Shown here: piece after piece, positions 8,534-60,345 of the stretch
Layout: every line of letters begins with the position of its first letter
How positions within the stretch are numbered: the stretch's first letter is position 1
Source: Chaetoderma sp. LZ-2023a
Lineage: Eukaryota > Mollusca > Caudofoveata > Chaetodermatida > Chaetodermatidae
Length of the DNA stretch: 64,000 bases
Direction: 5' to 3'
Assembly: GCA_034401795.1 (NCBI GenBank)
Contig: CM067367.1
Span: 56,548,206 to 56,612,205 of the forward strand
Position numbers and translations under genes: made by a program
The notes under the pieces: model-generated
Database searches by the model: none
Told to the model about the DNA's origin: nothing
The model's input: only the letters and a program-made list of their open reading frames with translations

Positions 8534-8664
8534 CTTTGTCAATGGCCAGAATGAAAACGACATGTTCTGTTTTCGTCTCGTAATCCAATTCACGAACTAG
8601 AGTTAGGCTCCCACCATCTATCTCAAACATGTATTCTGGATCCATTGTCTCATTGATAGACCAT
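8534..8664 (-). CDS. cadherin gene, exon 7 (partial EC repeat)
   Basis: 131 bp exon. The acceptor is a pyrimidine-rich tract ending CTCCAG before 8664; the donor is AAAG|GTATTAACC after 8534. The first base completes a GA+A codon left by exon 6, so the phase fits. The translation contains YMFEIDGGSLTLVRELDYET and FILAIDKG. These are the typical late strands of a cadherin repeat (F.ID...G.L.....LDYE...... A.D.G). Open reading continues past the donor, but that stretch loses cadherin character and is intronic. The exon ends in phase 1, so the gene continues to the left. Confidence 0.85.
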
Positions 8665-8707
8665 CTGGAGAAAAAAAATGTATTAGAATTAATATATGTT
8701 TAATGAT

Positions 8708-19924: not shown

Positions 19925-21159
19925 TTTTATTAACAAGAGGCCCAAGGGGCCTGTATCGCTCACCTGGACAATAGGCATTTCAACTAGAATGCTCTTTATC
20001 AACAACATAGCCAGGAAACCATTTATCCGACAGTTTCGAAAATTGCAAATTTGAGATGAGAATACCCAAAAACACATAAAAACAATTTCGGCCTCAAAAT
20101 CCATCAAATAAAAAAATCCAATATGGCCACCAAACATGCTATATTTTGATTGGCCCACGGCGGCCATGTTTTTTGACGGATCAACTTCTCTTGAACAAAC
20201 TTTAATGGCCCTTAGGCCCTAATCATATGTGCCAAATTTCGGCACGATCCCTTCAGCGCTTCTGGAGATTAAGTCATTTTCACTACAACTAGGTCAACCA
20301 AGATGGCCGCTGAACCATTTGACCAATCAAGTTCCCTTGCCATAAATCATATTTCATGAGGTTTGCATCAAGCCCCCAAGCCGTTTCGGAGAAGATTTTT
20401 AGACGTTTCCTAAAATCGGCCTAAATCCAAGCTGGCCGCCGGACAAATTGGCCGATCGGGTTCATTTGAACAAACTTAGATCTCTATGCCCTATGAATGC
20501 TTCCTCCCAAATATAATTGAAATCCGCCCAATGGTTCTTGAGAAGAAGTCGTTTAAAGAATTCCCCATTGCTTTACTATGGGCCCATTGCTTTACTATGG
20601 GAGCCTTTGGCGGGAAAACAAACCAAGATGGCAGCCAAAGCGTTTATCCGACAGTCTCGGAAGTGGCATATTTGAACTCCCCACACTGACAAGCATATAT
20701 AAAGCAATTTTCGCCATCAAAATACATCAAATACAAAAAAGCCAATATGACCTAGAAACGCTGAATTTTGATTGGTTGATGATGGTGGCCATGTTTTTTA
20801 ATGAACAAACTTCCCTTGAACAAACTTGAAAGGCGCTTGGTTCCTAAGCATATTTACCAAATTTCAGCTCTATCCCTTCAGCGGTTCGGGAGAAGTCGTT
20901 TTTGCAAAAACTAGGTCATCCAAGATGGCTGCCAAGCATATCGGCCAATCAGGTTGGCTTGAACAAACTTGGGTCTACCGCTACCACAGATGATGTGTTA
21001 TGAGGTTTGAATCAATTCCTCCAGCGGTTTCGGAGATTTTTTAGTGTTTCGAAAAATCAGCCATTTTGGCCGACGACCATCTTGGATTTTGACCGATCCG
21101 CTTCATTTGAACAAACTTAGATCTCTATGCCCTATGAATGCTTCACCAAAATATAACTG

Positions 21160-21190
<31 letters not shown>

Positions 21191-21868
21191 ATTTAGAGAA
21201 TTCCCCATTGCTTTACTATGGGCCCATTGCTTTACTATGGGAGCCTATGGCGGGAAAACAAACCAAGATGGCAGCCAAACCGTTTATCCGATAGTCTCGA
21301 AAGTGGCATATTTAACTCGCCACACTGATAAGAATATATATAAAGCAATTTTCGCCATCAAAATATATCAAATACAAAAAAGCCATTATGACCAACAAAC
21401 GCTAAATTTTGATTGGTTGATGGCGGCCATGTTTTTTAACGTAGAAACTTCCCTTGAACAAACTTGGATGGGCCTTGGTCCCTAAGCATATTTACCAAAT
21501 TTCAGACCTATCCCTTCAGCAAGATGGCCACAAGGCAAATAAGCCAATCAGGTTGCCTTGAACAAACTTGGGTCTACCATTGCAATAGATGATGTGTCAT
21601 GAGTTTTGAATCAATTCCTCTAACAGTTTCGGAGATTTCTTAGTGTTTCTAAAAACCGGCTATTTTGGCCGGTGGCCATCTTGGATTTTGGGCGATCGGC
21701 TTCATTTGAAAAAACTTGAATCTCTATGCCCTAGGTATGCTTCCTGCCAAATATAATTGAAATCGGCCCAGCGGTTCTTGAGAAGTCGTTTTAAAGGAAA
21801 AGCTGACGGACGGACGGTTGCCATTCCATAAGCTCACTTGGCCTTTCAGGCCAGGTGAGCTAAAAACT
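19925..21868 (+). repeat. R2 element with 643 bp direct duplication
   Basis: Starts ATTAACAAGAGGCCCAAGG and ends CTCACTTGGCCTTTCAGGCC then AGGTGAGCTAAAAA (21836-21868). Between about 20466 and 21530 a long unit is repeated with a shift of about 643 bp (CCATTGCTTTACTATGGG twice in each copy, GGCGGGAAAACAAACCAAGA, CATCAAATACAAAAAAGCCA). The open stretches at 20486-20689 and 21138-21485 are the two copies of this unit and are not genes. Confidence 0.85.
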
Positions 21869-30205: not shown

Positions 30206-30351
30206 TTTTATCACCTAGCATAAAATTTATTGAGTTTTTATTTAAGTGCTATCACATTTGAGGCCTATTATTATTTGTAGATAGCACATGTAACATTGCA
30301 TGAATCTGTATATATAACTAGCATACAATTGCGAAAGAAGCTAAAACTTAC

Positions 30352-30842
30352 CTTGAACACTCGAATTACACCTTCATAATTATTCTCATCATTGTCAATT
30401 TCGAAATATGCGAGTGCAGATTCCTCCATGGTGAATGTTAGGAAGGCATTCCGTCCCAAATCGCTGTCAGAGACCGGCATACGAAGAACCGCGGTGCCAA
30501 CTGGTGTTGCCTCGGGCAAGGTTACATTATAATAACTATCTTTATCAAACGTTGGCACCTGATCATTTGTGTCTGTTAATGTTATCACCATCGTCGTGCT
30601 ACCAGACTGAGGTGGAACACCATGGTCAGTGGCTAGAATTATCAAAGAAAATGTGTTACGATCAGGAAGTTCCCTGTCCAATATTGTGTTGTCATTCGTG
30701 CTTACAGTAATAAGACCGGAGACTGAATCAATTTCAAATGGCTCTATGCCATTAACAGTTGTTTGCCTTGTGATAGAGTAGGTCATGACAGCATTATCAT
30801 CAATATCACGATCCGTAGCGGTTACTTGTTTGACTATGTCAT
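30352..30842 (-). CDS. cadherin gene, exon 5 (one EC repeat and half of the next)
   Basis: 491 bp, the largest exon. The acceptor is TATGTTGCAG before 30842 and the donor TTCAAG|GTAAGT after 30352. Two leading bases complete the codon begun by exon 4 and it ends in phase 0. Motifs in order: VTATDRDIDDNAVMTYSI (DRD/DxN), FEIDSVSGLITV, LDRELPDRNTFSLIILATD (LDRE and AxD), LTDTNDQVPTF (DxND linker), then LPEATPVGTAVLRMPVSDSD of the next repeat, and GVIRVFK. The protein is extracellular in this family and would mediate calcium-dependent adhesion. Without the cytoplasmic part I cannot name the subfamily. Confidence 0.95.
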
Positions 30843-30969
30843 CTGCAACATAAACAAACATAAGTCAGAGGCAGATGAAATCAATATTACATTGTAATTA
30901 ACATTCTTGATGGTCAGACATGCTTTCTATATTGAGTATATTTCTGATAGGGGACTTTCCCATATAGCC

Positions 30970-31810: not shown

Positions 31811-32084
31811 CATTTCCTAGAGACTTTTTATATTCGCATTTTGCACATCATTGAAATGGGTATTGAAGCATTGACACCAGGGTTATGAAATGCAGCTTGC
31901 ATCAACCTCTAACCAGGGGGAATTCCCCTCTATTCCCCTTCTGTCCCCTGCCACCTCATCCCAACTCCTGTACACTCAATGCCTAATCATAATGATAATT
32001 GTGTGTTTTACATGCTATAATTATATTGACATACATTGACATTGCTATGATTGCGGATTGAATGCATTTAGCAAAATAAGTGCG

Positions 32085-33067
32085 TTTGATGTAAGTCCAC
32101 CCACTTTCCACTCTACCCCGACCCATGCTATATTATTGATGTTGGTGGGTGTAGAGGTTGGTTTGCTGTTGGGAAGTGATGCGTGGATGTGAAAATGATA
32201 ATGGAGAGGAATGGACAAGTAAGATATGGTAATGTGATGGTAGGTTGTGACAGTGATTAGGATGTGTATCAACCACAAGCCAGTGAGTCGACGTTTGGCT
32301 AGGAGCTGGGAGAGGCGAGACAGTGGTGAGGAGAGGGTGGGTGTGTGGTATGAGGAGGGATGTTGATGTGAGATGAGAAGAGATGTATGAGACAGGATGG
32401 GGATTCCATATGAAGATTTGGCTAGAAATGAGGTAGAATAGAATGGCATGGGTGGAGATGAGATACGGAAGGGGATGAGATGAGATGTGAAGGAAATTGG
32501 ATGAGATAAGGTGATGTGCTGTGGAATAAGATGATGCTGGATGGCATGTGGCAGGATGAGATGAGATGAAATGGAAATGGATGAGATGTAGTCATATTTA
32601 AAGAGAAGGGATATGATGAGATGGACTGGGGGCGATATGTTTGGTGTGAAAGAATTAATATAAAGTTGAGGTTAGTTGGTATGGGATAATGTGAATGGGA
32701 TGAGAGGCCGCATAAGATGAGATGAGTTATGATGTTAATAAGGTGTGATGGGATAACATTAGGTGAGGTGATGGGATAGAGTGGGATATGATATGGCGAG
32801 ATGGCGTGGGATGGGATGATATAACTTGGGGTGTGGTGAGGAGGAGGTGAGGTATGGAGAGATAAGATGATGTGGTCTGAGCTGAGGTGAGGAAAGGCGA
32901 GTTACAGTGATGTGGTGTAGTAGATGGGGCTGAGAAGGGGTGGCTTGGATGTGGTGACATAATTGGTGTTGTTGGTGGGTGTTGGATAGCGATGTTGGGA
33001 TTTGGAGATATTAATACGGTGTGATGGGATGAAATGAGATGAGGCACATTGTAGGATGTGTTAACAG
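32085..33067 (+). repeat. GATGAGATGG-type minisatellite, segment 1
   Basis: Degenerate GATGR and GGATGAGATG units with almost no C on the plus strand. Minus-strand open frames here (32045-32449, 32727-33167) read as Ser/His/Pro-rich text and are products of the repeat. Confidence 0.85.
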
Positions 33068-33075
33068 AGTAGAGG

Positions 33076-34546
33076 TAGGGCTGTGCGGTTATCCAGATTT
33101 TGAACCGTCTCCGGATTTTTAAGCATGACAGTTCGAAAACCGATGACATAATTTGACAACCGCACAACTGTGTATCTTTAAAATTCCGGTTTTATAATTA
33201 TTTTTTTAAGGATATATCATAATATATAACATTGATTGCATAAATTGGCTTTAATTTAATTTTATCTATTTGCAAAATAAAATCTGAAATAAAACCATAC
33301 CTACGCAGTATCGTAACAGGAGAATGTTGCTAGATCGTATTGCTACATACGTTCAGAAATTATAATCTGCTAGCGTTTTATTAAATCCTATAATACATGC
33401 TTCAAAGCATATCATAAGCGATCTAGTGTTTCTGATATCTATGTCTATTATGAATTCTGAACGCGCATCTGGGACTCTGAACCCGGGATGTGATCTAACC
33501 TGCCAAAGTAAGTTGAGATCGAATTTGTCTAATCGCTCGGGCGATCAAGAGTAATTTCTCGTGAATGTTCAGGAGCTGGCTCGACGTATGTTGGACGATA
33601 TAATTAACACTCGATGCAGGTCGATATATATTATTAGTGCCGGAAAACAACTTCTACAGCTTACAACTGATACAGTTTTAAAGCAAGTCCTTCCAAATCG
33701 CGCTTATGATCTATATTAAAATACGTATGAATTCCTTTTTGCGGAAACTGTATGCTAGTAAATAGTATAATATGGCCGAGTTTGATTACACATATCCGAT
33801 TAATTAGATCAATAAATTTGATTTACTACGCATGTTCAGGCATATACGATATGCAGATTTGTAACACGTGGCAGTATTACGACGTCTCTAAATTCGACAT
33901 AAGCATGTGTAAGCGTAGGCTATCGGGAACAAGTCTTTATATTATATACATTTGCATAATGCTTCTCATGAATCTCACTGGTCTCCAAAATGGAGGGTGT
34001 GTAACAGTCTAATTAGGTCTGCCATCTTTCAGAATTTATCACCGGCCCGATGTTTCCGAGACCTGAAATGACTAACTATCGAGTAGTATCTTTAGCGAAT
34101 GCTCTACAAATTTTCTAACTGTAGTTTAGTCATCCAAAAGTATTTTCTACTCCATGAACCGCCTGAATTGGCCACTAAAAGCCACAGTAAATTTGGCAAT
34201 GTATCTCTACACATTATCCCAGAGGTGGGTATATGAATTGCTAATTGTTTAGGAATCTATTATATAACAGATTGTGCAAGAACTCGAAATGACATATGGC
34301 GATGAATTTAAAAGCGCAAAATCTAATGTTTTAAAGCAATTTAAGTATTGATTTCACTATATCCTCTAAAATTGAATCGGATACTATACATGTAGCTACA
34401 GATTTAAGTCTACCACTAAAGACGTTCTATTTTCGCGGTATTGCAATTTTTTTTTCCACGAAAACTGAAAATATTTTCAGCCAATAAACCGGATTTATAG
34501 CCAACACCGTCACCGGTTGTGTTCTTACCAAAACTGCACAGCCCTA
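33076..34546. mobile_element. hAT-like non-autonomous transposon 1
   Basis: 1,471 bp. It begins TAGGGCTGTGCGGTT and ends AACTGCACAGCCCTA, which are inverse of each other, flanked by the 8 bp duplication AGTAGAGG (33068-33075, 34547-34554). An 8 bp duplication with a (C/T)AGGG-type end is typical of hAT elements. No transposase frame is visible. The interior (33180-34430) is AT-rich and unassigned. Confidence 0.85.
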
Positions 34547-34554
34547 AGTAGAGG

Positions 34555-34870
34555 GGGATGGGATGAGGTACAATTCATCGAGGTGAGATGGGATGAAATG
34601 AAGCTGAATGAGATGAAATGAGATTAGTTCAGATAATTAAGGAGGTGGGGCGGGGAGAGCTGCGATGAAGTGGTCTGATGTGAGATGATGAAAGGCGAGA
34701 TACAATGATGTGGTGTGAAAAGTGGGGGTGATGATGAAAGGCGAGTTACAATGATGTGGTGTGAAAAGTGGGGGTGGTGTGGAGTGGTTTTGGTGTGGTG
34801 GCATATTTTGTAGTGGGTGGGTTTTATGGTGTTTGGGGAGATGAGGCGATGTGAATTGGATAATGTAGAG
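34555..34870 (+). repeat. GATGAGATGG-type minisatellite, segment 2
   Basis: Resumes immediately after hAT-like element 1. Contains a short internal duplication, GATGATGAAAGGCGAG.TACA, at 34682-34770. Confidence 0.85.
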
Positions 34871-34925
34871 TAACTGAAAGGTACCATATGGCAATGTGAT
34901 GGAAGGCTGTGCTGATTATGATTAG

Positions 34926-35408
34926 AACAAGAGGCCCAAGCACGTGTGACACTCACCTGGACCATTAGCATTTGAAGCATTTGCATTTAAATATACATGC
35001 TTCGTTACATCAAACAACATGGGAAAAATCTACCAATCAAAATTCTGAATGGAAATTCTGATGCCTATGATCATAGGATCATTTTAGCCAAGTTTGGTTG
35101 AAATTGCTCTAAGTAGTAAGGAGATGAAGCAATTTGACAATTTCCAGTAAATTTGTAATAAAGTGTAAGATTTTCACACAAGAATTTTGATGAATCAAAA
35201 TTCTGAATGCAAGTTCTAGAGCCTATGATGATAGGATTCTTTTGGCCAAATTTGCTTGAAATCAGTTATGTTGACAAAAATAAGCAATTTGAAAATATCT
35301 AAGATTTTCAGTCAAAAAATTCATGAATCAAAATTCTGAATGGATGTTCTGGACCAAACCACCATAGAATCCATCTAACCAAATCTGGTTGAAATATGTC
35401 AAGCAGCA
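34926..35408 (+). repeat. R1 fragment inside the minisatellite
   Basis: 5' signature AACAAGAGGCCCAAGCACGT, ACCATTAGCATTTGAAGCAT and CATTTGCATTTAAATATA, then about three R1 monomers ending GAAATATGTCAAGCAG. No R1 3' end is present. Confidence 0.8.
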
Positions 35409-35600
35409 GTGCTGTTAGGATAGGCGAGACGGTGGTGAGGTGAAAAGGTGTGGGTGAGTGATATGAAGAGCGGCGCTGAGGTGAGATGGGAAGGAATGTG
35501 TGGGAAAAGATGAGGATGAGATAGGTTTGGTTGATGAGGTAGGATAGGATGTGAGGAGTTGGGATGGGGTGAGAGGAAATTAGATGAGATGGGATGGGAG
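35409..35600 (+). repeat. GATGAGATGG-type minisatellite, segment 3
   Basis: Same purine-rich composition (AGATGAGATGGGATGGGAG), ending at hAT-like element 2. Confidence 0.8.
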
Positions 35601-37102
35601 TAGGGCTTGGCCATTTGGCCTAAAAGAAACCAGTGACAGTATCACTAATTAAACCGGTTTAACCGAAATACCGGTCTAAGCAGCTTAATGATCGATAATA
35701 ATTTGAAATACTAGAATATCTTGTTTTTATTAGCCACAGTACATGTATTTTGCGATTTGACAACTGACGTAAATTGCCACAAAATTAGAACGGTACTACG
35801 TTCACTTCGACGCTAACCATCTCAAAATAGTAGTTAAAATAAATTAAATAAAAAGTCTGGTTCATGTGATGTCGTGAAATTAACACCCTAACTACTACAA
35901 TGTTGATTTTGAACACTGTTATTAGGTCACTATTTTCGAAAGCGTAGCAAAATATAATGCATGAGAATAGGAAGCCGGTTATTAGAGCGAGTTTAGGCCC
36001 CTAGTACAGTGGCGTCGATATGGATAGAGTTTGTATACCCACCTACAGTATGATCTAGTCTAGTAAGTAATGTGTTTGTATTCGAGTACTCGGTATTCAG
36101 TAATACTCTTCAATAAACTCGTTCACGCGGGTGAATGTCGTTCAGCACGTAACGAAAAGGGTAGCCATTTCCCGGAAATCGCATTTCAAGAATTCTTACA
36201 AAAAGATGTCTGTCTGACTATTTTTCGAGAGAATATGCCATAATAAAGAGACTATGACAATTTGGCCAAATAAACGCAATGATTCGCGGGAATCTAACTT
36301 AAATCAACCTCGGTAGTGTGGCAGATATACGATGTGATTCTAACTTTATCAACGAAAAAGTCACGTGATGAAAAATACTACGATTTACAGGAATTTCATT
36401 GATAAAATCAACAGTAGTGAATATCCCGATGGAAGAATTCGTTATCAACCAATCACATTACGCCTGCTCATATTTGAGAGGCGAAGAAGTTTATTTTACT
36501 TGTAACTGGTCCAGCAATGTATGAAGCAAACGTTTTCATTTCTCGGGTGTTCAAGCAATTTGTCTCATATGTCTTATTTCATCCTGGATCATTTTATGTT
36601 TATCAAATTCTAAGGGAAATAGTGACATTTTTGGATTGGGAGTTCATCGTATAGCGTTGTTGTTTTCATACCATATTTCTTAAATTTTTTTGTATCGTGT
36701 CACGTTTGGAAATCTAATTAAACATACTACAAACGCAAATTGACAAAAGGATTATTTGTTACAAATTAGAAATTCAGATTTTTAAATTATTCAATCTTAC
36801 TTTGAACTCACGTCAAGGAGTGTCTTCATCAGCCGATTTGTTGGGATTTCACCAACACCTTGCTTTCCCACGGCTAATAGTTACAGATACCTGTATTTTA
36901 TGGCACTAATAGCAAATGGTTACCCACTAGATGATAATAAACTCAAGTCAAGAACAATTGACTAGTTTATTACACTCACCAGATTTCGCGCAATGGTGAT
37001 CTTACGGACAGTTTTTCTTTTTTTTTTAATTTTGTAATAATTTTTAAACCGTCACCATTAAAACCATGAGACGGTGTGAAACTAGTATACCGCCCAGCCC
37101 TA
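35601..37102. mobile_element. hAT-like non-autonomous transposon 2
   Basis: 1,502 bp. It begins TAGGGCTTGGC and ends GCCCAGCCCTA. The flanking 8-mers GATGGGAG and GATATGAG are similar (6 of 8), consistent with an aged duplication. The interior has no transposase frame and does not visibly match element 1 beyond the ends. Confidence 0.7.
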
Positions 37103-37720
37103 GATATGAGGACATTGGATGGGATATGGTGATGTGATGTGGCATGAGCCGTGGTAGAATGATGTGAGATGAAATCGTTTGGATGAGAGGTCAGATGCAA
37201 AGAGCAGGGATGTGAGGAGATGGGATGGCACGGGGCGATATGGAATGGTATGAAATGAGCTGGTATATAAAGCTGAGGTGAAGTGGAGTGGGATGATAGG
37301 GTGGGACGGAGTGTCTTGAGGCTTAATGATATGAGATGAATTATGACGTGGATAAAGTGAATGGATACCATGAGATTAGGTAGGATGAGGTGATGGAATA
37401 AGGTAGGATAGGATAAGGTGGGCCTGGATGAGGTGGGTGAGATGAAGCGAGATGGGATTATATGAGAGAATAAGGAGATGAGGTAGGGGGAGCCGAGATC
37501 TGATGTGAGGTTAGGAAAGGTGAGTTATAGTGATGTGATGCAATAGTTTGGGCTGGGAAGGGCTGGCTTGGATATGGTGAGGCAGTTGCTATGGTTGATG
37601 GGTGTTGGATGGTGATGTTGGGGTTTGAATGAGGGGCAGAGTGGGATGGTCGGTGGGATACGATAAGATGATGATAGGAAGAGAATAATGGGGAGGAGAT
37701 GAGATGTAACATACTTTAAT
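37103..37720 (+). repeat. GATGAGATGG-type minisatellite, segment 4
   Basis: ATGGGATATGGTGATGTGAT, GAGATGAAGCGAGATGGGAT and similar. Minus-strand open frames (37458-37827) are repeat text. Confidence 0.8.
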
Positions 37721-38346
37721 GTGATGGTAGATTGCAGGGATTCACATAAGGGTTCTTCTGAGGCTATATACCCAAAGAGTGAAGCTTGGGACCCCCAAAA
37801 GTATGGTAAGTCGGTCCCATTGAACACCTGAAAATCTTGTATGATTGCTAAATATTAATTAGTTTCATAGGTTTTTGTATGAAAATAACGACAAGATCTA
37901 GCATGGGACGCCTATAATTCACAGTTCTGAGTACCTGGATGGGAAACATTAGATAGTAGATTGTGTTGAAGAAATAAGGGTGACTACGATGAGTATAACT
38001 ATTCGCCAACTCTGCCAACCAACAGGGTCATCTCAAGTGCATTTCAACTCAAGGTTAAGAATTTATATGGCACAGGTCATAGGTCTCCTCTTCAACCTCA
38101 CCCAAAGCCGCACACTACCACCACCCCACGACACACCTAAAATATGTGAAAATCAAGTCATCTGAAAAGCCATTTTGGGTAGTTTAAGAGAAAATTTCAT
38201 CATAAATTTTATAACATAACACATACTATAAGTCTTCGAATCTGAGTAGAATCTTGATGCACATAGAATTTCAAGAAACCTGTCTATAACAAACACGGTA
38301 TAGTCGGCAAGAGTCATGAAACACAGGTTTTCTCTCTCGCATAGAA
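37721..38346. other. intron 4 sequence, nothing recognised
   Basis: No exon, repeat end or hairpin that I could support. Confidence 0.4.
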
Positions 38347-39136: not shown

Positions 39137-39760
39137 CTAGATCGAAGAACATGCCCAGGTAAACAACTTCTGGGATGGAGTTAGCTCTGATTTTTGAAAG
39201 TTGATTATCCAGGCTAGATCTGTCAAAGTTTTCAAAACTATTTCCAGATTTGCTGATAGACTTTCTTGATTGTGTGCTTTTAACGTGTTATTTACGTGTG
39301 GACTGCTATGTGTCTCCTGTGGAGGTATGACGTGATAGCTAGGACCACTGGAGTGAAGACCAGAGCAGCTGTCGAAATTCCAAAAGGAAGAACCCTGAAT
39401 TTCCATTGGCAGCCCCTGAAATGTTAATCTCAGGAACCGACGAAAGCTCTTCGCAATTGGAATGTCAAAATAAGCATGTTTCACATCTATTGATGCTGTC
39501 CACATTCCTTTCCTCAATCCAGCTGACACCATCCTTACTACAGTTTCCATTTTGAAACTTGGTGAGAGGATAAACCTGTTGAGAGGATTGAGGTTCAGAA
39601 TTGGTCTCCATCCTCCAATGCTTTTTGTCACTAGAAACACAGTTGAATAGTAACCCGGACAATTCTGTGTGGGTTGAATCACTTGTTTTAGTATGAGGGA
39701 TTGAATCTTTTCCTCTATACACAACCGTTGATCTGGATCGCTTGGATTTTGAGTCCAGAT
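39137..39760 (-). pseudogene. DIRS-like reverse transcriptase fragment
   Basis: Open stretch 39724 to 39137. YSTVFLVTKSIGGWRPILNL, LNRFILSPSFKMETV and MWTASIDVKHAYFDIPIAK (RT motif A with DVKHAYF) are seen. FLRLTFQG follows. The catalytic box that would come next is not recognisable; the text SSFWNFDSCSGLHSSG replaces it, perhaps after a frame change. The last part (LTDLAWIINFQKSELTPSQK) matches the conserved LGW.IN..KS.L.P.Q of DIRS and gypsy RTs. Confidence 0.75.
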
Positions 39761-39775
39761 CGGTACTAGAGACAG

Positions 39776-46379: not shown

Positions 46380-46606
46380 CCATTTAACCCGCATATCAGC
46401 CGAAAACGGCTTCTGCAGTGGTCTTGAGAAATGTCCATTTGCAGACCAAGAGAAGCCTTTTTTAATTTTACCAATGGAATTCCTGGCTCGATAACCGAGC
46501 CAGTCATTAGAGGTAAATTAAAAAAAATAGTCTTATCTTGGACTGTAAATGGACATTTTCTATTGGAAAATGGAAATTTTCGTGAACAAATTCGAGGGTT
46601 AAACGG
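46380..46606. mobile_element. MITE-B copy
   Basis: 227 bp between TTAA at 46376-46379 and 46607-46610. CTGCAGTGGTCTTGAGAAAT, GCAGACCAAGAGAAG, GGCTCGATAACCGAGCC centre. It lies 34 bp from the donor of cadherin exon 4. Confidence 0.85.
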
Positions 46607-46640
46607 TTAATGTCTGACATAACGAATCTAAGGGACTTAC

Positions 46641-46935
46641 TTCTTACACTGTGCTCGCGCACAGACCCTGTAGTCATTGTAGCTTGGTCAAATATTGGCT
46701 TATTATCATTGATATCAATCGGCCTAACTGTGATAGCAGCGATACCGATTAATTTGGTATCACTTGCAATTACGATAAATTCATAAGCTTGATATGTGTC
46801 TCTATCCAGTTTCTCATGGACACTGATAACACCTGTTCGCGGATGGATCTTGAATGCATTTGTTGCGTATACTGGTAGATTGAGGCTGTAGACTAACTCA
46901 ATATTTTGATCGACATCAGCATCCACAGCATGCAC
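46641..46935 (-). CDS. cadherin gene, exon 4 (one EC repeat)
   Basis: 295 bp. The acceptor is ACCTGCAG before 46935; I chose the donor AGAA|GTAAGT because it fits the consensus and the phase. It starts in phase 0 after exon 3 and ends with one base completed by exon 5. The translation has HAVDADVDQNIELVYSL (DADxDxN), FKIHPRTGVISV, LDRDTYQAYEFIVIASD and the linker PIDINDNKPIF. An alternative donor six bases upstream (CACAGT|GTAAGA) is possible and would shift the end by two codons. Confidence 0.95.
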
Positions 46936-47404
46936 CTGCAGGTTAGATCAGGGTTGAGGATTACATAGACTACATATGATAACAAACATGTTATATCTAC
47001 TCAGTTTTCATATTATTAAAGATGTTGTGAGGACTAGCTAGCCGATCGCTCAGATTAACTTGACAAATCATAATATATATTCTCCTTTATAAGAAAATGC
47101 AATTAAAATTGTTAACATCTCAGACAAAACTGAGATAAATGCATAGCAACTGCCTAAACAACCAAACATTTTAAGCTTTAAAGCTGGAGTTGTGATGTCA
47201 TGCCGAGAGACACTCAAGAATTCTTGTTAGTTTCTTATTCGAAATAATACTATAGGCACCTAGACTACTGTGTGTATTATGCACCAATTTTTGTATACAT
47301 TTCCACTATACATCGGTGCTGTATGACAATGCACATACATTGTATGAGTTGCCCAAAGATTCAGTAATAGCGGGAAAAAAATGGAGGATATCTTTGTCGA
47401 TTAA
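46936..47404. other. intron 3 sequence, nothing recognised
   Basis: No feature beyond AT-rich intronic DNA. Confidence 0.4.
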
Positions 47405-49453: not shown

Positions 49454-49613
49454 TTAATGTCCAGTGTTAATATATGCCTACTACCACCACCAACAACCCC
49501 ATCCCACCAAAGTGCTCATTTTAATTATTGTCTGGTGGCTTGCATGCTCAGCGAGACAGCTAAAACCTCACCTGACGAGAAAGACATGACCTGATTATTA
49601 ATTTTCATCTCAC

Positions 49614-49802
49614 CTGAATCATATCAAACGGGACGTTTGTATCCTCCTCAGTAACATTTTCAACAGTGTAGTCGATCTGCGGGAAACTCGGTGGATTATC
49701 ATTGGCATCCAATACTTGGATCGTAAGCTCCATTGAAGCCGTTCTAAACCCGCCTTGCCTTTCATTGATTCCATCAATTACTTCAACCATTAATATATAA
49801 AG
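49614..49802 (-). CDS. cadherin gene, exon 3
   Basis: 189 bp, 63 codons, phase 0 at both ends. The acceptor is TTCTATTTCAG before 49802 and the donor ATTCAG|GTGAGA after 49614. The translation LYILMVEVIDG continues directly from the LDYEDENRR end of exon 2. SMELTIQVLDANDNPPSF is the calcium-binding linker, and TVENVTEEDTNVPFDMIQ starts the next repeat. The transposon at 49943 begins only 141 bp upstream of the acceptor in gene orientation. Confidence 0.95.
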
Positions 49803-49942
49803 CTGAAATAGAAGTTTGATCAGACATTTTATCATCTTAAATACAGTACCATTAGTCAGAAAAAACATTTCCAAAACAAAATCTGAAACATGTTAGGTAG
49901 GCTATCTCCCGAACCTGGCGGTTGGAGTAGGGTAGGTAGTTA

Positions 49943-50060
49943 TAGTCCAGTAAAACTACAAATTAACCTAGAACAAATTGCAACAGAATTTATTTCTTTT
50001 CTGCAGCATTCATGGGACTGCCAGGTGTCACATATCAAAAGTCCTCCAAAATCCCTCGAT
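49943..50060 (+). repeat. left terminal inverted repeat
   Basis: TAGTCCAGT at the tip, then two long blocks (49971-49991, 50030-50052) that reappear inverted at the right end. Confidence 0.9.
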
Positions 50061-50415
50061 GGGAAAGTAGGTAAATTCACATATTTAGCTACCGCCATTA
50101 TCCGAATAATGAAACTTCCCTTGCCTGCTTCATTCCGCAAATAAACGAAGTAGAAATGTTGTCTAAGCTCTGAATTTCATGGTCACGGAAGACAGTAAGC
50201 AATTGGCAATATTGCCTTGAACCACTTGTACAAATTCTCCAAACCACAGATTAAATATGGTTGTATGCACAGGGCCGGGGTAATTTAAAAAAATTATATT
50301 TAAAGTAAGTTTAATTTTGTTTTTCGCTTTTAAAATTGTATCTAAAATAAATTGCATTTTAATTTGCACTTTTATCTCACAATTTGAATAAATTTCTATA
50401 CAATTCAATCAGAAT

Positions 50416-53400
50416 ATGGACATGGATTTAGATACATGCGTTATTTGTAACCAGAGCCTAGAAAATGGCTCACAAACTGTTAAGCTTCGAGTTAAAGGCT
50501 GTGACGGTATTAACAATGCTAGCAGAGCCCGTGAAAGCGATGTCATAGCTGAAGTAGGACAGAGGGATCATGTAAAATGTCGACAGGAGTTCATTGATCC
50601 CAAGCGGATTGCCCGTGACGCAGAGAAAATTGAACAATCTCCATCACCCATGCGAACACTCCGTTCAGAAAGTCCAACATTCAATTTTAGTGAACATTGT
50701 TTGCTATGCGGATACCCTGCAAAAATTCAAGATGGAAAGAAACGTGGCTATGATATTTATCCAGTAAGTACTCATGACTTTCAATGTAGTATCGCTGAGG
50801 CCTGTGAACAGAGAAGACGAATGGGGCAAACTTGTAGCTGGGTGGCTTGCCTTCACGCCAGATTTATGCGTTGTCAATGCAGTATACCATCAAAGCTGCA
50901 GAGTAGATTTTCGAACCATGAAAAATATCCCTCAGCTGCACTCATCTTGCTCATCCCAAAAACATGGAAGGCCAGAAGACTTGGACAGAGTAAGAGCATT
51001 TAGTGCGACAATGGCATTTCTTGAAAATAATGATGATGAGCAGCTGACCCTGCACGACCTCGTTAATAAAATGCAAGAGTATCTCGATGATAAAGAGAAT
51101 AAAGCATACAGTACAAAATACATGCAGGATAAAATAAAAGATAATTATGGCGATGAAATATTTATTAGCACTGTGAATGGTAAGCCAAACGTTGTTACCT
51201 TTCGTTCTAAAGCATCTACTATTTTGACTGACTTCTATAAGGAACAGAAGAGAAAGGATTCCAAATCAGAGAGCATGCTAATCATCCAGACAGCTGCCAA
51301 ACTGCTTAGACACGATATTAAGTTAATTGATTCATGCACATCATCTGAAAGCTATCCATCAAGGGAGCAAATGAGCGACCCAGTAAAGGCATTGAATTAT
51401 TTACCACAGACACTGCGGGAATTATTGCGGATTTTGTTTACTGGAAAAGACACAGAAATGAAACAGGCATCAGTTGGACAGGCTATTATGCAAGGAACTC
51501 GTCCTAAAGTTATTTTGGCACCTTTGCAGTTCGGGCTGTCATGTGAGATGCACCATAAATTTGGATCTAGATTTATTGTTGACACCTTGTACAAGCACGG
51601 ATTTGGATGTTCATACGCGGAGATACAGAGGTTTGAGCGCAGTGCATCACTTCACGGTGGAGATCTACCACAGCCATTATCAGGCGAGTTCATTCAGTTT
51701 GTTGCCGACAATGTGGATCACAATATTTGCACAATAGATGGGCATAATACATTTCATGGAATGGGAATCATTGCATCTGTTACACCAGGAAACCTTTCGT
51801 GCAAACTTATTCCAAGGATAAATGTAACATCTGAAGATATCAAGCAAGTTGGCAAGATCTGTATCAGGAACTTTGAGTCTCAGCATACCAGGAACTTCCC
51901 ATTGACCTTTAAGGAGTTAACTGCGATCGAACAAACAGACCCAACAGCTGACATTGACATCCTCTGGGATTTCTCTTTGTTTCTGCGTTCAAGGAGACAG
52001 TCATGGTCTGGCATGATGCAAACTGTTCACCAAGGAGTTTATCCAGGTAAGTCGTCTGTTATTTTCCTTCCGATGATAGATCTAGAGCCAAGTAACATGA
52101 CCTGCATCTTTTCCACTTTGACTTATGTTTGTGAACAGGCAAACCGATACCATGTTGCACCCGTGATTACATTTGATCAGCCCTTATTTTGGAAAGCTAT
52201 GACCATCATAGAGATTGAGCCGAGCTGGAGTCCATTAAAGCAAATTATTCTAAGACTCGGAGGTCTTCATATGGAGATGAGCTTCCTTGGCTGCATTGGT
52301 CACTTAATGGCAGGAAGCGGTCTTGCGCCTATTCTAGAGGTAGTCTACGCTGAGAATGCTGTCAAACACATTCTTAGTGGAAAGGCAATTTCTCGAGCAG
52401 TTCGAGGACACCTCATGGTTTTTGCTTCTCTCAGTACAATCTTGATTGCAAATGATGATAATGTTGCAGGACATGAAACGATTGAAAGTTCCATAAATAA
52501 AAGTCTGGTTAAAGTTGGAGAGCTCTATGATGACATTATCAAAAATCTGTATGTAGCTACAAGATTGTCCTCGGAAAATGCATTACATGATGTCAAGGAC
52601 AAACTAGACTAGGTGGTCATGAAAGATAAGAGGACTGCACGACTCTGGCTTTTGTATATGGAGTTGGTTGACATTCTGCGCAAATTCATTAAGGCAGAAC
52701 GAACTGGTGATTGGAACATGCACCTTCAGACCGTTCGTGAGATGCTTCCATATTTTGCAGCCGCTGGGCATAATCTGTACGCCAAGTCTGCATATGTATA
52801 TTTACAAAAGATGTTAGAAATACCTGAAAGTCATCCAGATATACACACCAGCTTCCTCAATGGTCATCATGTCATTCATCGAAGTGATAGGTATTGGGCA
52901 GGGTTATCTACTGATCTAGTTATTGAGCAGGTCCTTATCAGAAGTGTAAAGTCAAGTGGTGGTCTAACACGAGGTCGTGGAATGACAGAACTTCAGCGTC
53001 TTGTTTGGTTGTTGTCTATGCCCGCATGTGCAGATGTGTGTAATGCAATGCAAGAGCTCTCTGGGGTAAACTGTGATTCAAGTGAACAACACAAAGATTC
53101 CACACAATCTCGAATAAAGCGTGATATGGATGATACTTACAAAATTCTCAAAATCCTTAGTGAACTGAATCCATTTGGACCAGACCCTTCTCTTAGAGGA
53201 CTTGTTAGTGGATTGTCTGCACATGAATCAGTCAATGTTGACGATGCTAAAGATATTGGAGAATCAATTATTAATTCGATGTGTGGCCAATGTGTATCAA
53301 GCATTTCGTTCCAGAGAAAGAGACAAGCTATTACCGTAGCATCCAAAACATCTCTCAGGATTGATGATGAATGTGTACAAATTGATCCACAACTCCTATT

Positions 53401-54769
53401 TCAAAGACTCAGTTTAATTGCTACAAATGGATCAAAAGGGAATCCAGCATCTTATTTTGAGTATGAGTTGTGCACTCATCCGCCCGCACTCTTTGATAAT
53501 TCATCTCTTCCATGGGAAGCAAATAAGCCGGCACTTGCTGATGCATTGTGGAAATTAATTCAAGATGAAGATGCAGTCCTTCCAGATTCTGTCCACTATG
53601 TGCTTGATGGAGGAGCTCTATTACACCGTGTTCCATGGCAGCGTGGAGAGACATTTGCAAATGTTTGTCAAAGATATGTAAAATATTGCATAAGCAAATA
53701 TGGAAAGGCTACAGTAGTTTTTGATGGTTATGACCAAGGCCCAGACATAAAAGATGTAACACATAAGAGGCGAACTCGTGGATCAGGCGCAACTGTTGTA
53801 CTGACTCCGCAAACAGTTGTAACTCTGAGTAAGCCTGATTTTCTTAGTAACAAGCAGAACAAACATCGGTTCATATCAATCTTAAGTTCATCTCTCGAAC
53901 AGGCTGGATGCTTAACGATAAAGGCAAGCGGTGATGCTGATGTCTTAATTACGCAAACGGCTATCTTGGCTTCAAAGTCAACAAATACTGCTCTTGTTGG
54001 AGACGATACCGACCTACTGGTGTTGCTTCTATACCATACTGATATGAATGGCTGTCAGCTATTTTTCAGACCAGAGCCAAAGCAAAATGCAAAGAAACCC
54101 CGACTGTGGAATATCAAAATGGCAAAGGAAAAACTCGGGTTCTGTTTGTGCTCACAGCTGTTATTTATCCATGCTATCCTTGGCTGTGACTCAACATCTA
54201 GGCTTTATGGAATTGGAAAATCTGCATCACTTAGCAAAATCCAGTGCTGCAAAGAACTCTCTCAAATTGCTGAAGTGTTTACAATGAGTAATGCGAATAA
54301 AGATGACGTGATAAAAGCAGGTGAGAAGGCAATGCTTATTCTATACAATGCCACGTCAATGGATAGTCTAGTTGCTTTGCGGTACAAGCGATTCAGGGAG
54401 AAGGTTGCAAAAAGTTCCAAGTATGTTGAAGCACGAGATTTACCACCAACACCCGCATCCGCAAAGTTTCACAGTCTTCGCGTGTACTACCAAATTCAAG
54501 TTTGGAGAGGAGATGCTTGAGATATGGATCCAACAGAATGGGGCTGGAAAGTTCTCAACCACCAAATGCTGCCTGTTAAGACTGACATGCTGGCAGCGCC
54601 TGACGATTTACTGTATTCATTTAGATGCAGCTGCAAAACTGGCTGTGAATCAAAGAGATGCACCTGTAGAAAACATGGGCTCAGCTGCACATCCGCCTGC
54701 AAAGACTGTAAGGGTCTCAGTTGCTCGAATTCAATAACGCTCATTGAGGAAGATGACTTGGATAATTGA
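50416..54769 (+). pseudogene. Academ-like transposase with XPG-like nuclease, broken
   Basis: Starts ATGGACATGGATTTAG at 50416. N-terminus: two CxxC...HxxxC pairs (CVICNQS/DHVKCRQEF; CLLCGYPA/VYHQSCRVDF). Core at about 51706-52330: ADNVDHNICTIDGHNTFHGM, VITFDQPLFWKA and LHMEMSFLGCIGHLM, candidate acidic catalytic residues. From about 53586: LDGGALLHR, ATVVFDGYDQGP, ASGDADVLIT, VGDDTDLLVLL and LGCDSTSRLYGIGK, the metal-binding acidic pattern of XPG/FEN nucleases. C-terminus (54623-54730): nine cysteines in a CXC-like pattern. Breaks: a one-base frameshift near 50805-50825, an in-frame TAG at 52610-52612 and an in-frame TGA at 54518-54520. Reading frame and homology-like text continue across both stops. 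About 1,450 codons in all. Confidence 0.85.
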
Positions 54770-55089
54770 TGCAAGATGAAATTAGTAGAAACCAGGTACC
54801 TATGCCATACTATTTCAGCTTAGAAACACACAATACCGTGACATAATAAAATATAATATGTATCAATATCAATGATGGTATTAGGTAAATTCATGCAAGT
54901 TGCATAACACAATACATTTAATTTGTGGAGAATATGTCAATCGTATTCATTTATTACTAAAAAAGTCCAAAAATACCCAGTCACACATATATTACATACC
55001 GGTTTTAAAGAAATAAAGAAAAATGGATTTTTCAGGTGAAATGGCCCAAATCTGGTAATAATTATGCAAATTTTACCCTTTCCCCTATT

Positions 55090-55211
55090 GGAATTTTGGA
55101 GGACTTTTGATATGTTGTATATGATGGCCCCGTATACACTGGGCGAGGTAAAAAAATTCTGTTGCAATTTGTTCCGGGTTAAAATATTTTTGGCCTAGAT
55201 TGACTGGACTA
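55090..55211 (-). repeat. right terminal inverted repeat
   Basis: Inverse of the left end: blocks at 55093-55115 and 55154-55174, tip ACTGGACTA. The blocks sit nine bases further from the tip than on the left, so one indel separates the two ends. Confidence 0.9.
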
Positions 55212-55214
55212 TTA

Positions 55215-56469
55215 GGGAAATTCTTTTTTTTTAACTGCTGAAATATAACATTAGAAAATTAAATTTAATGAACAAAACTTGAAGGTTTTTATTTGAACTT
55301 GAAACAGAAATATAAAGCAAACAGTTTCTCACGGTTATATGAGCCCATTTTGACGAAATGCGTCAATTCACACTACCAATAAACTTACATCAGAAAATAA
55401 AAATGTCTTCACAGAAAACTCCAAAAAAAGATTTTGAGTAGGCAGGATTTTTTTAGGGTTGGTAGGGAGAGGACAACCAAACTATTATTTAAGGATGGCC
55501 TTCGTAAGAATGGTCTGTTGAATATTTTGAACATGTCAGTTTCTGCCATGGTCTTGCAAAATTACCACTTGCAGACCAAGGGAAGTGTTTCTTCAAATTT
55601 ACCAAAGAAATGGCCGGCTTGATAACCAACGCAGTCATTCCAGAAATAAATTTAAACAAATACTACTCTTGGTCTACAAATGTACTGTTATGATACTCAC
55701 CAATAGAGTCTTCATTCTGATGACACACATCTATATGGTAAAGCGTGTCAACCATCACTGAAGTTAGTAGTAACATCTTAATGATCACATTCATCAAAAC
55801 ATGCCTTATTGACATCAGTGTGGTAATGGGATAAAAAAAATTTAACAAGAGCTTTGGTGCTGAAAATGATAGGATGGGTAGGTTAAGGATATTTATTACA
55901 CCTTCAGTGGTTCTTCTATACAGGTGAAAATTTACACACGTTATAAGGTAGATACTTTTGCAACCTATGTACATAGAAGGGTAACCTTCAGTACATACTT
56001 GAGTAGCTACGAGAGTGGGACCTACACCCACCAAATTAAAACAGTATCAATGTTTAGAGCGAGTACCTTTCTACGATTTATGGACCGAATATATTGGACT
56101 CGGGAATTCAGAAATTACTTTATATTATTATGTGATGACGATCGAGTATTATGCAATCGATCCAATCAGCATAATGGGAACACATTTGATAACATTTTTT
56201 TGTTAATACGAGTCAGTTCATACAAGGAAGTATTGTAAGTTAGATGATATTTCTGTGAAAAGTGATTGCAACGCGCCAGTAACCATTGATTTTTTTTCTC
56301 AGCATGATCACAAAGATGTGTCAAGATGTCTGACTTGGTTCATACACTATCGGTCATTGATAAGTTTCTCGGACAATATGACCATTTTGGGAGCTCACGA
56401 GCACAGGCACCCATGCACGCCTTTTGTTCCTTTGCTTGTATACATGCACACAAACATGTACGCACATAC
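55215..56469. other. intron 2 sequence
   Basis: A MITE-B relic lies at about 55530-55690 (GTTTCTGCCATGGTCTTGCA, CTTGCAGACCAAGG, ACTCTTGGTCTACAAATG). Apart from that nothing is recognised. An exon-like stretch at 55694-55765 was considered and rejected because it breaks the phase. Confidence 0.5.
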
Positions 56470-57100: not shown

Positions 57101-60100
57101 CCCCTGTTTAAGACTACAGAACACTTGATAAACGGGGAGAAGACATTGAAGCATGGCAAGATGAAAAGCACCTTTTACTTGTCAATGATCCCACAGATCA
57201 GCCTACATTCTACTCGCGCCGGTGGCACTCGACAACAATGCCGGACTTGGCATTTTGTACAGACGACATTTACAGAAACCTCTGTAGAGTAGAGTGGTCG
57301 GTTCGCAGTTAGGAGGAAGCGACCACCGCCCAGTCCTACTCTCTCTTTCTGTAAGTATTTCGACAAGTTCACCTCAACGTCCAAGGTGGAACCACAAAAA
57401 GGCAAATTGGAGTCTGTTCGGCATTCGTTCCAATGAGCTTACCCAAAATATAGCAGTAGAAGGGAGAAACATCGACAATGTGGTCAAGGAATTTAATTCA
57501 AGTATCCTCAGGGCTGCCAACTAAGCGATTCCGCGAGGGTTCAGGAAAAACTACGGCCCATACTGGACAACAGAACTGCAAGCAGCACATGATAAACTAG
57601 ACAAGGCCAAAGAAGATGCAGAGGGTAATCCCTGTCATGAAAACCACTTCACGCTACAACAAACTAAAGCCAGGTGTCTAAAGACCAAGCTGGAGGCCAA
57701 AAGAAGAAGCTGGAGGAAAAAGACGGTAGGGTTTAATTTAGAGACACACCACAAAGCTATGGAGACTGACTAAAGCACTGAATGATGAGGGTGTCAGGGG
57801 AGAGAAGATTACTCTTGAAGAAGATGGACAAACACTGACAGGAAAGATTGTTGCAGATGCCTTTGCGAAGGCATATGCAAAAGAAAGCAACATTTCTATA
57901 CCACGAATGCGTCAAATGGAGGTTAGAAAAGAGCAAAAGGAAAGAACAGACACCAACACTCATGATGCAATGAAAGTTGACATTAGTTTAGCAGAACTGA
58001 AGAAGGCTATTCGCCAATTGAAGAAGAAGAAATCTCCCAGGCCAGATGGCATTACGAATGAAATGATCCAACACCTTGGTAATGCATCTCTCTGCAAGTT
58101 GCTAGACATCTTTAATCTCAGTTGGACCAATGGAGAGGTTCCTCAGTGCTGGAAGGAAGCCAGAATGACTCCTATTCTGAAAAAAGGGAAGAACAAGACG
58201 AAAGTGCTGAGCTACCATCCTATCAGTCTTACAAGCTGCATACGCAAGACCATGGAGTGCATCATCAACCAGCGGTTGCAGCGGTACCTGGAGTCGGAGA
58301 ACATTATAGTTTCAGAGCAGGCTGGCTTCAGAAGATACAGGAGCACACAAGATCAAACAACACATCTTGCACAGGTCATAGAGGACACTTTTCAAGCCAA
58401 GAAGGTGATGCTAGCTACCTTTATCGATCTGTAGAAGGCATTTGACAAGGTGTGGAAGGATGGCCTCCTCGTGAAGCTCCGGCGGACAGGCATTGGTGGC
58501 AACATGTTCCGATGGACCAAGTCATACCTACACAATCGCAGAGCTAGGGTGCTGGTGGATGGGCAATCTAGGCAGAATGTATTGCTGAGACAAGGGGTGC
58601 CACAAGGCGGAGTATTATCACTGACTCTGTTCATACACTTCATTAATGACATTGTAGCAGAGCTGCCCAATGGGATCCAAGTAGCCCTCTATGCAGATGA
58701 CCTCGTACTCTGGTGCACCGAGTACACAACGACTGCCACGTACAGAATGCAGCTCGTCTTGGACAGAATTACAGCTTGGGCCAATCGCTGGTGTATTACC
58801 ATCAACAAAGAAAAATCATCAGCCATACTATTCTCACTGTCCACCAAAACCAAGGTTGGCAATCTGACACTGGGCGGTACTCCACTCGAGTACGAGGACC
58901 AGCAGACATACCTGGGAGTCACCTATGACAGAAGATTAACATGGAAGGAGCACATCCAGAACGCAGAGGCAAAGGCCAGAAGAAAGCTAAACATCATGAG
59001 GAAGCTGGCAGGAACAAAGTGAGGTGCCAATGAAAGGATCCTCAAGACCATCTACCTAGGTGCCGTACGACCACACCTTGAGTATGGGCTCATGGATGAC
59101 AGCAGCTAAATCTCATCCACAGAACCTCGACAGAGTACAAAACCAGGCACTGCGCATCATCACTGGTGGAATGAGATCAACACCAATAGAAAAAATGGAG
59201 CAGACAGCAGGCATCCCCCCCACTTAGCAAAGGAAGGGAATGCAAAGCACTGATCCAAGCTGCAAAGTTCAAATCGTTCAACAACCACCCGATGAAGATC
59301 AGGCAAGCACAGCTGTCATCAGGAAGACTTAAAAGATCAAGTTTTGTGAAAGAGACAAAAGCACTTCAAAGAAAACACCAAGAAATGTTGCCAGCACAAA
59401 TAGAAGACCCAAACCACACCCTTGATCCTCCACCCTGGGAAAACAAACTAGAGAGCATAGCTATTCGCACCACAGTACCTCATCTCACAACCAAAGATGA
59501 ACACAGTGAAGTGAGCAAGAAGGCGCTGACCCTAGCCATGCTGGAAGAAACGTACCCTTAGGAAACATGGATAAGGATTTACACAGATGGATCAGCCAAA
59601 GATGCAATTAGGAGCGGAGGTGCCGGACTGTACATACAGTATCCAAACGGACAACATGAGTCAGCTGCAATACCGACAGGCAAACACTGCACAAACTACA
59701 GAGCTGAAGTCGAAGCACTGGTTCATGCAGCTAATACCATCAGCAGAACAGCAGACCCTATCGCACAAATTGTCTTTTTATCTGATGCCCGCTCCGTCCT
59801 TGAGGCTATCACCAAAGGTAAGCTGCCACAACTTACAACTTGAAGAAGCACTACAAACCATCAAATGCTTTCGGATAGCATTGCAGTGGATCCCCTCACA
59901 CTGTGGAGTCCAAGGAAATGAGGAAGCAGACAAGATGGCAAAGGTGGGTGCAGAAGAGAATCAGACAGAAAACATGGTTACCCATACAGAGATGAAGACT
60001 ATCATCAAGTCACTCTATAGAACACCTCAATCAGAAGATGCCTACCATCATCTCTCGAGGCCAGAGCAAGTGACCATTTTTCGTCTCAGAACTGGACACA

Positions 60101-60345
60101 ACAGACTAAACCAACACATGTACAGGCGGTTCCACCATCGCCCGCTTGTCCTTGTGGAGAAGCAGAACAGACCACAGAGCACATACTTCAATGTTGCAGC
60201 ACGTATCAGCTGCTGAGAGAAGAGATCTGGTCTTTGTCAGCCTCTTTTCTTGAAAAGCTGTATGGGCCTGTGGAAGAACTGCAGAAAACCACAGATTTCA
60301 TCTTGAGAACGGCTCTCCAAGTGTGATACCACCGATCGAAAAGAA
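57101..60345 (+). mobile_element. I-superfamily (Nimb-like) LINE, 5'-truncated
   Basis: 3,245 bp, flanked by GATGTCATAATCAT (57087-57100 and 60346-60359), a 14 bp target-site duplication inside MITE-A. It carries the end of an APE endonuclease, an RT, an RNase H and a C-terminal Cys/His knuckle. RNase H downstream of RT points to the I superfamily. No poly-A tail is visible; the 3' end is CACCGATCGAAAAGAA. Confidence 0.92.
57140..60330 (+). pseudogene. I-type LINE ORF2, broken
   Basis: Endonuclease C-terminus: PDLAFCTDDI and GGSDHRPVLLSLS (57309-57350). RT: SPRPDGITNEMIQHL, YHPISLTSCI, SEQAGFRRYRSTQDQ, RQGVPQGGVLS and YADDLVLW (catalytic YADD at 58690-58701). A TAG at 58432-58434 interrupts motif A, between TFIDL and KAFDKVW. 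RNase H: IYTDGSAKDA (about 59574-59605) in one frame and LQWIPSHCGVQGNEEADKMA (about 59880-59940) in another, so a frameshift lies between. A CPCGEAEQTTEHILQCC knuckle is at about 60149-60199. Other stops are near 57522 and 59020. Inactive copy. Confidence 0.9.

Follow-up and report, generated by a model that had tools for sequence, protein, structure and literature searches.

Elements of the Academ superfamily are divided, in an excerpt of PMC10045372, into AcademX, which carries a nuclease and makes target-site duplications (TSDs) of 3-4 bp, and AcademH, which carries a helicase and makes TSDs of 9-10 bp, and the author considers that the difference in TSD length seems to be related to whether a nuclease or a helicase is encoded. 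Curated Academ elements of bivalves have a mean length of 5,565 bp according to an excerpt of PMC10294476, and lineages of another group, Kolobok, are described in an excerpt of PMC9587614 as carrying accessory nucleases. Here, we report on an element at positions 49943..55211 of a 64,000-nucleotide stretch (the window, by which the whole stretch is meant; G000:C9:56548206-56612205) of the 2.44-Gb genome of Chaetoderma sp. LZ-2023a. Judged from its sequence, it is very probably a decayed copy of a young DNA transposon of the AcademX kind, which is bounded by terminal inverted repeats (TIRs) and encodes putative zinc fingers, a DUF6589/DDE transposase, a flap endonuclease (FEN)-like nuclease and a CXC-like tail.

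The locus was compared with AcademX (Kojima) at the level of published description, and the two have in common a transposase combined with a nuclease, TSDs of 3-4 bp and TIRs, with no helicase being detected here in a Pfam scan (E ≤10) of the intact 1,484-amino-acid (aa) protein encoded by sister copies. On these grounds, the AcademX-type identity proposed in a preliminary description, made from the letters of the window, is upheld. DUF6589 and the CXC-like tail found here go unmentioned in the excerpt on AcademX (PMC10045372). AcademH, which belongs to the same superfamily in the scheme given there, was rejected, as the TSDs are of 3-4 bp and not 9-10 bp and a helicase was not detected in that scan.

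Ends, insertion site and sister copies

The element, its ends and the repeat into which it is inserted occupy the following positions.

49943..55211, + strand: whole transposon copy, 5,269 bp, delimited by its tips, the TSD and 38 related empty sites
49940..49942, strand not applicable: left TSD, TTA
55212..55214, strand not applicable: right TSD, TTA
49943..50087, + strand: left TIR (blastn, 70.3% over 155 columns, E 1.4e-13)
55059..55211, - strand: right TIR (blastn, paired with the left TIR)
49905..49942: left-hand portion of the older interspersed repeat that hosts the insertion (most empty-site matches begin at query base 113)
55215..55364: continuation of this older repeat on the right, within the range searched (empty-site matches)

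Read directly from the window, the left tip TAGTCCAGT starts at 49943 and the right tip ACTGGACTA ends at 55211, with TTA on each side, as had been claimed. The two longer inverted blocks noticed earlier at matching offsets inside the ends are real as well (I1, 38 nt at 87%; I2, 33 nt at 91%), and they turned out to be parts of one gapped TIR of ~145 bp, in which 49943-50087 pairs with 55211-55059. In a blastn comparison within the window, each element end had the other end as its sole partner at E ≤0.01. One result speaks against reading these repeats as element ends: in a random-pair control, one of 2,918 pairs of window stretches scored 132.5, compared with 131.5 for the TIR pair, which is probably due to other repeats in the window. 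Since this control is not perfectly clean, the decisive evidence for the ends comes from the copies elsewhere in the genome and from the empty sites, by which chance TIRs are ruled out.

To find empty sites, 150 bp of the left flank, with one TTA at its end, was joined to 150 bp of the right flank, and the same genome was searched with this query. As a result, 40 matches were scored, two of which were the window's own flanks, and the remaining 38 spanned the junction in one alignment with an identity of 86-91%; these are related repeats at loci different from that of the window insertion. Letter-by-letter alignment of two of these matches showed no gap at the junction, both of them reading ...GTAGGTAGGTAGGGAA..., where the window reads ...GTAGGTAGTTA[element]TTAGGGAA..., and both having GTA at the position of the window TTA. 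Because related empty sites span the junction, the element can be taken to end at 49943/55211 inside an older interspersed repeat, of which 3 bp has been duplicated. Empty sites ending elsewhere, which the preliminary description had named beforehand as evidence to the contrary, were not seen, and the related ones fit both ends.

When the genome was searched for the family of the window copy (family A), every scored place was 98-100% identical in the case of the left end (40 places), 99-100% in that of the right end (40 places) and 97-100% in that of the C-terminal protein half (69 places); the first-look candidates (959, 979 and 16,330, respectively) are mostly unscored and do not represent copy numbers. 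Twenty sister copies were fetched, and, being drawn from the 69 best-scoring C-terminal-half places, they are biased to young and intact ones. Both tips were present in 17 of them, each copy with its own short duplication, whereas the 5′ tip was absent from L033 and the 3′ tip from L034 and L043. Together with the window copy, the TSD was 3 bp in 17 of 18 copies and 4 bp in one, the sequences being TTA in five, CTA in three and ten others in one each, including the 4-bp TATA. TTAA was found in none of the 18. Kolobok elements duplicate TTAA, and Kolobok was rejected on this count.

Full-length sister copies are mostly ~5,385 bp in length, which is close to the 5,565-bp mean reported for bivalve Academ elements in the excerpt of PMC10294476. 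The window copy had been described as near-complete, and this is true to the extent that both of its ends are present, although at 5,269 bp it is shorter than these sisters and decayed. The 18 copies diverge from their majority by 0.06-0.78% (0.70% for the window copy), and L025, L026 and L027 have three differences each in 5,385. Family A is thus the product of a recent burst, being young and recently mobile. When changes were counted with the truncated L033, L034 and L043 excluded, singletons comprised 206 replacement, 7 stop and 86 silent changes and shared changes comprised 8 replacement and 3 silent ones, but these counts say little on selection because most of the changes probably postdate insertion.

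Some copies are rearranged. L030 and L031 (two of the 20) have lost an internal piece together with the zinc fingers, but their frame stays open for a long distance across the nuclease (1,032 and 1,014 aa, respectively). L002 is likewise internally shortened, having lost the zinc fingers and kept a long frame open across the nuclease, and its breakpoints lie within a few bases of those in L031; since they nearly coincide, one shortened derivative has probably multiplied too. L008 (1501-3178) contains 865 bp from the 5′ part of the element and, after a further ~250 bp, another element start with the same orientation.

The transposase-nuclease gene and its relatives

The gene and its parts lie in the window copy as follows.

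50416..54769, + strand: transposase-nuclease gene, broken in the window copy, 1,484 aa in intact sisters
50437..50899, + strand: N-terminal pair of Cys/His fingers with the sequences CVIC...HVKC and CLLC...HQSC (recognized by motif only; family B has comparable pairs)
51707..52927, + strand: presumed DDE transposase core, DUF6589 region (DNVD, D432/D435; FDQP, D588; E871; numbering of the intact protein)
53453..54493, + strand: FEN/XPG-like nuclease domain (D1098, D1137, D1207, D1209, D1231, D1233, D1292; numbering of the intact protein)
54626..54724, + strand: cysteine-rich CXC-like tail (Pfam TCR E 0.42, below the cut-off; similar tail in family B)

A single gene does span the interior, as the preliminary description had stated, but in the window copy it is no longer intact: the frame shifts near 50.81 kb, small deletions have occurred, with an in-frame one near 52.45 kb, and two stop codons stand at 52610-52612 and 54518-54520. 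Intact copies, which had been proposed as something to look for in the genome, were found: an open 1,484-aa gene starting at element base 474 is present in 5 of the 20 fetched copies (L027, L035, L036, L038 and L041), and near-full-length genes are present in L037 (1,482 aa) and L044 (1,474 aa). The paired zinc fingers and the CXC-like tail of the earlier account were both seen, the former as two Cys/His motifs and the latter as a cysteine-rich segment, and each has a counterpart in a second, related family in the same genome (family B). Two diverged 42-bp tandem units lie at 50290-50374, inside the transposon and just upstream of the gene.

The Pfam scan of the intact protein at E ≤10 listed DUF6589 and DUF3876 alone. 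The match to DUF6589 (PF20231) had 16.7 bits and E 0.0032, the Pfam cut-off being 27; three family B pieces match the same model at 37.7 to 55.4 bits, over that cut-off, and families A and B are homologous across the DUF6589 region (tblastn of the family A protein vs L059: 799 aa, 20.9% identity, E 3.5e-25). The candidate catalytic residues D432/D435, D588 and E871 are kept in all seven near-full-length A copies; FDQP of family A and FDMD of family B, as well as the E, are aligned between the families, and DNVD is also seen in family B. The core is therefore presumed to be a DDE-type transposase. It counts against this that a profile of the core, searched against the Protein Data Bank (PDB), retrieved no known DDE structure and nothing better than E 0.78, the assignment being based on the conserved residues and DUF6589.

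Family B was recognized among eight fetched DUF6589 places, seven of which (L052-L055 and L057-L059) belong to it, the eighth being L056. Its parts follow the same order as those of family A, namely two Cys/His fingers, DNVD, FDMD, a D..E motif, the nuclease and the CXC-like tail. The family B copy around L052 starts with TAGTCTGTC and ends with GACAGACTA, with TAC on both sides and TIRs of 140 columns at 77%, and the tip TAGTC is common to the two families. The other of the two family B copies that were read, around L054, is less favorable, as its 5′ tip is altered and its flanks do not form a matching duplication. Inside its left end, family B has tandem units that are each ~190 bp long, three of them in the copy at L060 (244-816).

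In the genome as a whole, 102 of 1,025 candidate places for DUF6589 were scored, with the weakest match listed at 37.7 bits. L056 (G000:C17:87176300-87179800) is a different DUF6589 relative, covering positions 8-202 of the hidden Markov model (HMM); the stretch read gave no indication of the nuclease of families A and B, and it adjoins frames that resemble reverse transcriptase by eye. Outside this genome, relatives were sought and none were found in prokaryote contigs (with the first 614-aa half of the protein and the nuclease motif pattern), in viral contigs (with the second 635-aa half and the motif patterns) or in phages (with the first half).

These results bear on the possibility that the element is not Academ at all and belongs instead to Kolobok, to KDZ/Zisupton or to an unnamed DUF6589 group that gained a nuclease, which we regard as improbable. 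CXC domains occur in KDZ elements, which counts in favor of such a placement. So does the existence of Kolobok lineages with nucleases (PMC9587614, excerpt), which are DDE transposons carrying a nuclease, as the present element is presumed to be. However, the nucleases described there are lambda-exonuclease-like, DEDDh or His-Me finger enzymes, whereas the one here is FEN-like, and the TSDs here are 3-4 bp long and never TTAA (0/18). In addition, DUF6589 and DUF3876 were the only Pfam families listed for the intact protein at E ≤10, without any other transposase model, and a nuclease with a 3-4 bp TSD is the very pair published for AcademX (PMC10045372, excerpt).

The nuclease domain and its possible role

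A nuclease profile (A1) composed of one family A row and four family B rows (91-93% alike) was searched against 177,635 PDB sequences. As a result, three sequences were found at E ≤10, all of them Exonuclease 1, an XPG/FEN enzyme, with whole-sequence E values of 0.0048, 0.0052 and 0.027 and with EAD, DxD and GCD...G aligned in register; the equivalent search with the profile of the transposase core, which gave nothing better than E 0.78, serves as a control. A Pfam scan of three family B nuclease pieces gave weak matches in two (5_3_exonuc_N, 0.037; NYN_YacP, 0.11 and 0.2), both models being families of the PIN/FEN kind, and none in the third. The host FEN1 was located in the same genome by XPG_I, and the score of its alignment with the element domain was reached by 4 of 2,000 shuffled sequences with BLOSUM62 and by 8 of 2,000 with BLOSUM45. 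In a multiple alignment with it (~20% identity), FD, (E/D)A(D/E), DxD and GCD are in register. Six acidic positions align with the host FEN1 (alignment A2), the first of the seven residues, D1098, being matched by eye only, and the matched FEN1 residues have active-site roles. The six are conserved between families A and B, which are ~21% identical, and all seven are present in six of the seven near-full-length A copies.

Several observations weigh against a FEN-type assignment. The best single stretch in the Exonuclease 1 match reaches only E 0.062, and the profile is in effect two sequences because four of its five rows come from family B. Pfam XPG_I and the element do not match in either direction. 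The similarity to the host FEN1 is of modest degree, in that phmmer with the host FEN1 finds no element match and hhalign with the host FEN1 gives a probability of 6% and E 0.0061. In L041, which is one of the seven near-full-length A copies, a nuclease aspartate is missing. As Pfam XPG_I is unmatched, we call the domain FEN/XPG-like and not a filed member of that family. The preliminary description had reported an XPG/FEN-type acidic pattern and suggested checking the reading segments against Pfam XPG_I; the pattern stands, in that the motifs are co-linear with FEN1 and the PDB profile matches only Exonuclease 1, but the Pfam check gave no match. Relative to FEN1, EXO1 and XPG nucleases, the domain thus shares co-linear (E/D)A(D/E), DxD and GCD...G motifs, together with FD in the host FEN1 alignment only, and differs in lying below Pfam XPG_I detection and in being fused to a transposase. 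The nuclease of AcademX is of the XPG type, although the excerpt gives no more than 'nuclease'.

It is very improbable that the acidic pattern is due to chance and the C-terminal half something other than a PIN/FEN-type nuclease. Besides the missing XPG_I match, such a reading could draw on single-sequence searches, in which the PDB gave no FEN-type match and Pfam did not recognize the nuclease as XPG, and on the shuffled sequences that score as high as the host FEN1 alignment. It would not account for a two-family profile that matches only Exonuclease 1 in the entire PDB set, for the weak PIN-kind matches in family B pieces or for motifs co-linear with the host FEN1.

With respect to the role of the nuclease in Academ-type transposition, no paper on the subject was among those listed in searches of titles and abstract openings. 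We tentatively suggest that the fused nuclease may release the element by removing 5′ flaps after the DDE core has joined the 3′ ends only. The DDE core would cleave at the 3′ ends of the element and join them to the target across a 3-bp stagger, after which the 5′ ends of the element would still carry the old flanks as 5′ flaps, beside a short gap. FEN-type enzymes cut 5′ flaps or single-double-strand junctions rather than plain duplex. The fused FEN-like domain could then cut the 5′ flaps at the junction, by which the element would be freed from the donor, and host repair would fill the 3-nt gaps. Binding of the TIRs or stabilization of the complex might be the task of the zinc fingers and the CXC tail.

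The closest rival to flap removal, which we consider rather doubtful, is that the nuclease acts ahead of integration by cutting the non-transferred 5′ strand at both ends, with a fully excised linear element as the intermediate. The fused one-protein layout in both families and the FEN-like active site could serve such cutting, and in Tn7, by analogy, TnsA cuts the second strand beside TnsB. The preference of FEN enzymes for flaps and junctions fits flap removal after joining better, but the present evidence separates neither from the other. It is unlikely, in our view, that the nuclease is accessory or regulatory (cleaning up gaps after insertion, processing the broken donor or binding DNA without cutting it) and dispensable for transposition. 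AcademH has a helicase where AcademX has a nuclease (PMC10045372, excerpt), and the superfamily can accordingly do without the latter; nevertheless, a dispensable domain is at odds with six FEN-type acidic positions kept between such distant families and with seven acidic residues intact in six of the seven near-full-length A copies.

Genomic setting and meaning for the family

The segments of the window that resemble cadherin are as follows.

46510-46947, - strand: cadherin-like exon (Pfam Cadherin, 2.6e-11)
30274-30864, - strand: cadherin-like exon (Pfam Cadherin, 4.6e-19)
8268-8699, - strand: cadherin-like exon (Pfam Cadherin, 6.8e-4, below the cut-off)
49709 and 61000, - strand: cadherin-like motifs

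Because the + strand element is flanked by - strand cadherin-type coding segments, it probably lies antisense in an intron of a cadherin-like gene; the nearest segment, 49608-49892, has a cadherin-like motif and no Pfam match at E ≤0.01. Elsewhere in the window, there are remains of a non-LTR retrotransposon at 57742-60213 (+ strand; RVT_1, 1.8e-7 and 9.9e-22; RNase_H, 2.8e-7) and reverse transcriptase fragments at 346-1242 (- strand; 6.8e-8) and 39140-39775 (- strand; 2.6e-4, below the cut-off; DIRS-like by eye). The GC skew is strong, at 0.26 to 0.41 across 6 kb (32001-38000), and a perfect 2 x 19-bp array of CCCATTGCTTTACTATGGG occurs at 20564-20601 and again at 21204-21241, 640 bp apart. 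A scan of the window with Rfam at the gathering threshold gave no match.

DUF6589, a Pfam family of unknown function, for which no paper naming it was found in a literature search, gains a likely identity from this study as a conserved region of a transposase. Transposons combining a transposase with a nuclease are already known in kind, and it is the naturally intact copies that are the special feature of family A. As the sampled copies diverge by less than 1% from their majority and naturally open 1,484-aa genes are among them, the role of the nuclease becomes testable. If flap removal proves true, one chain would contain both halves of the chemistry, and the family would represent a hairpin-free cut-and-paste route that uses a repair-type nuclease.

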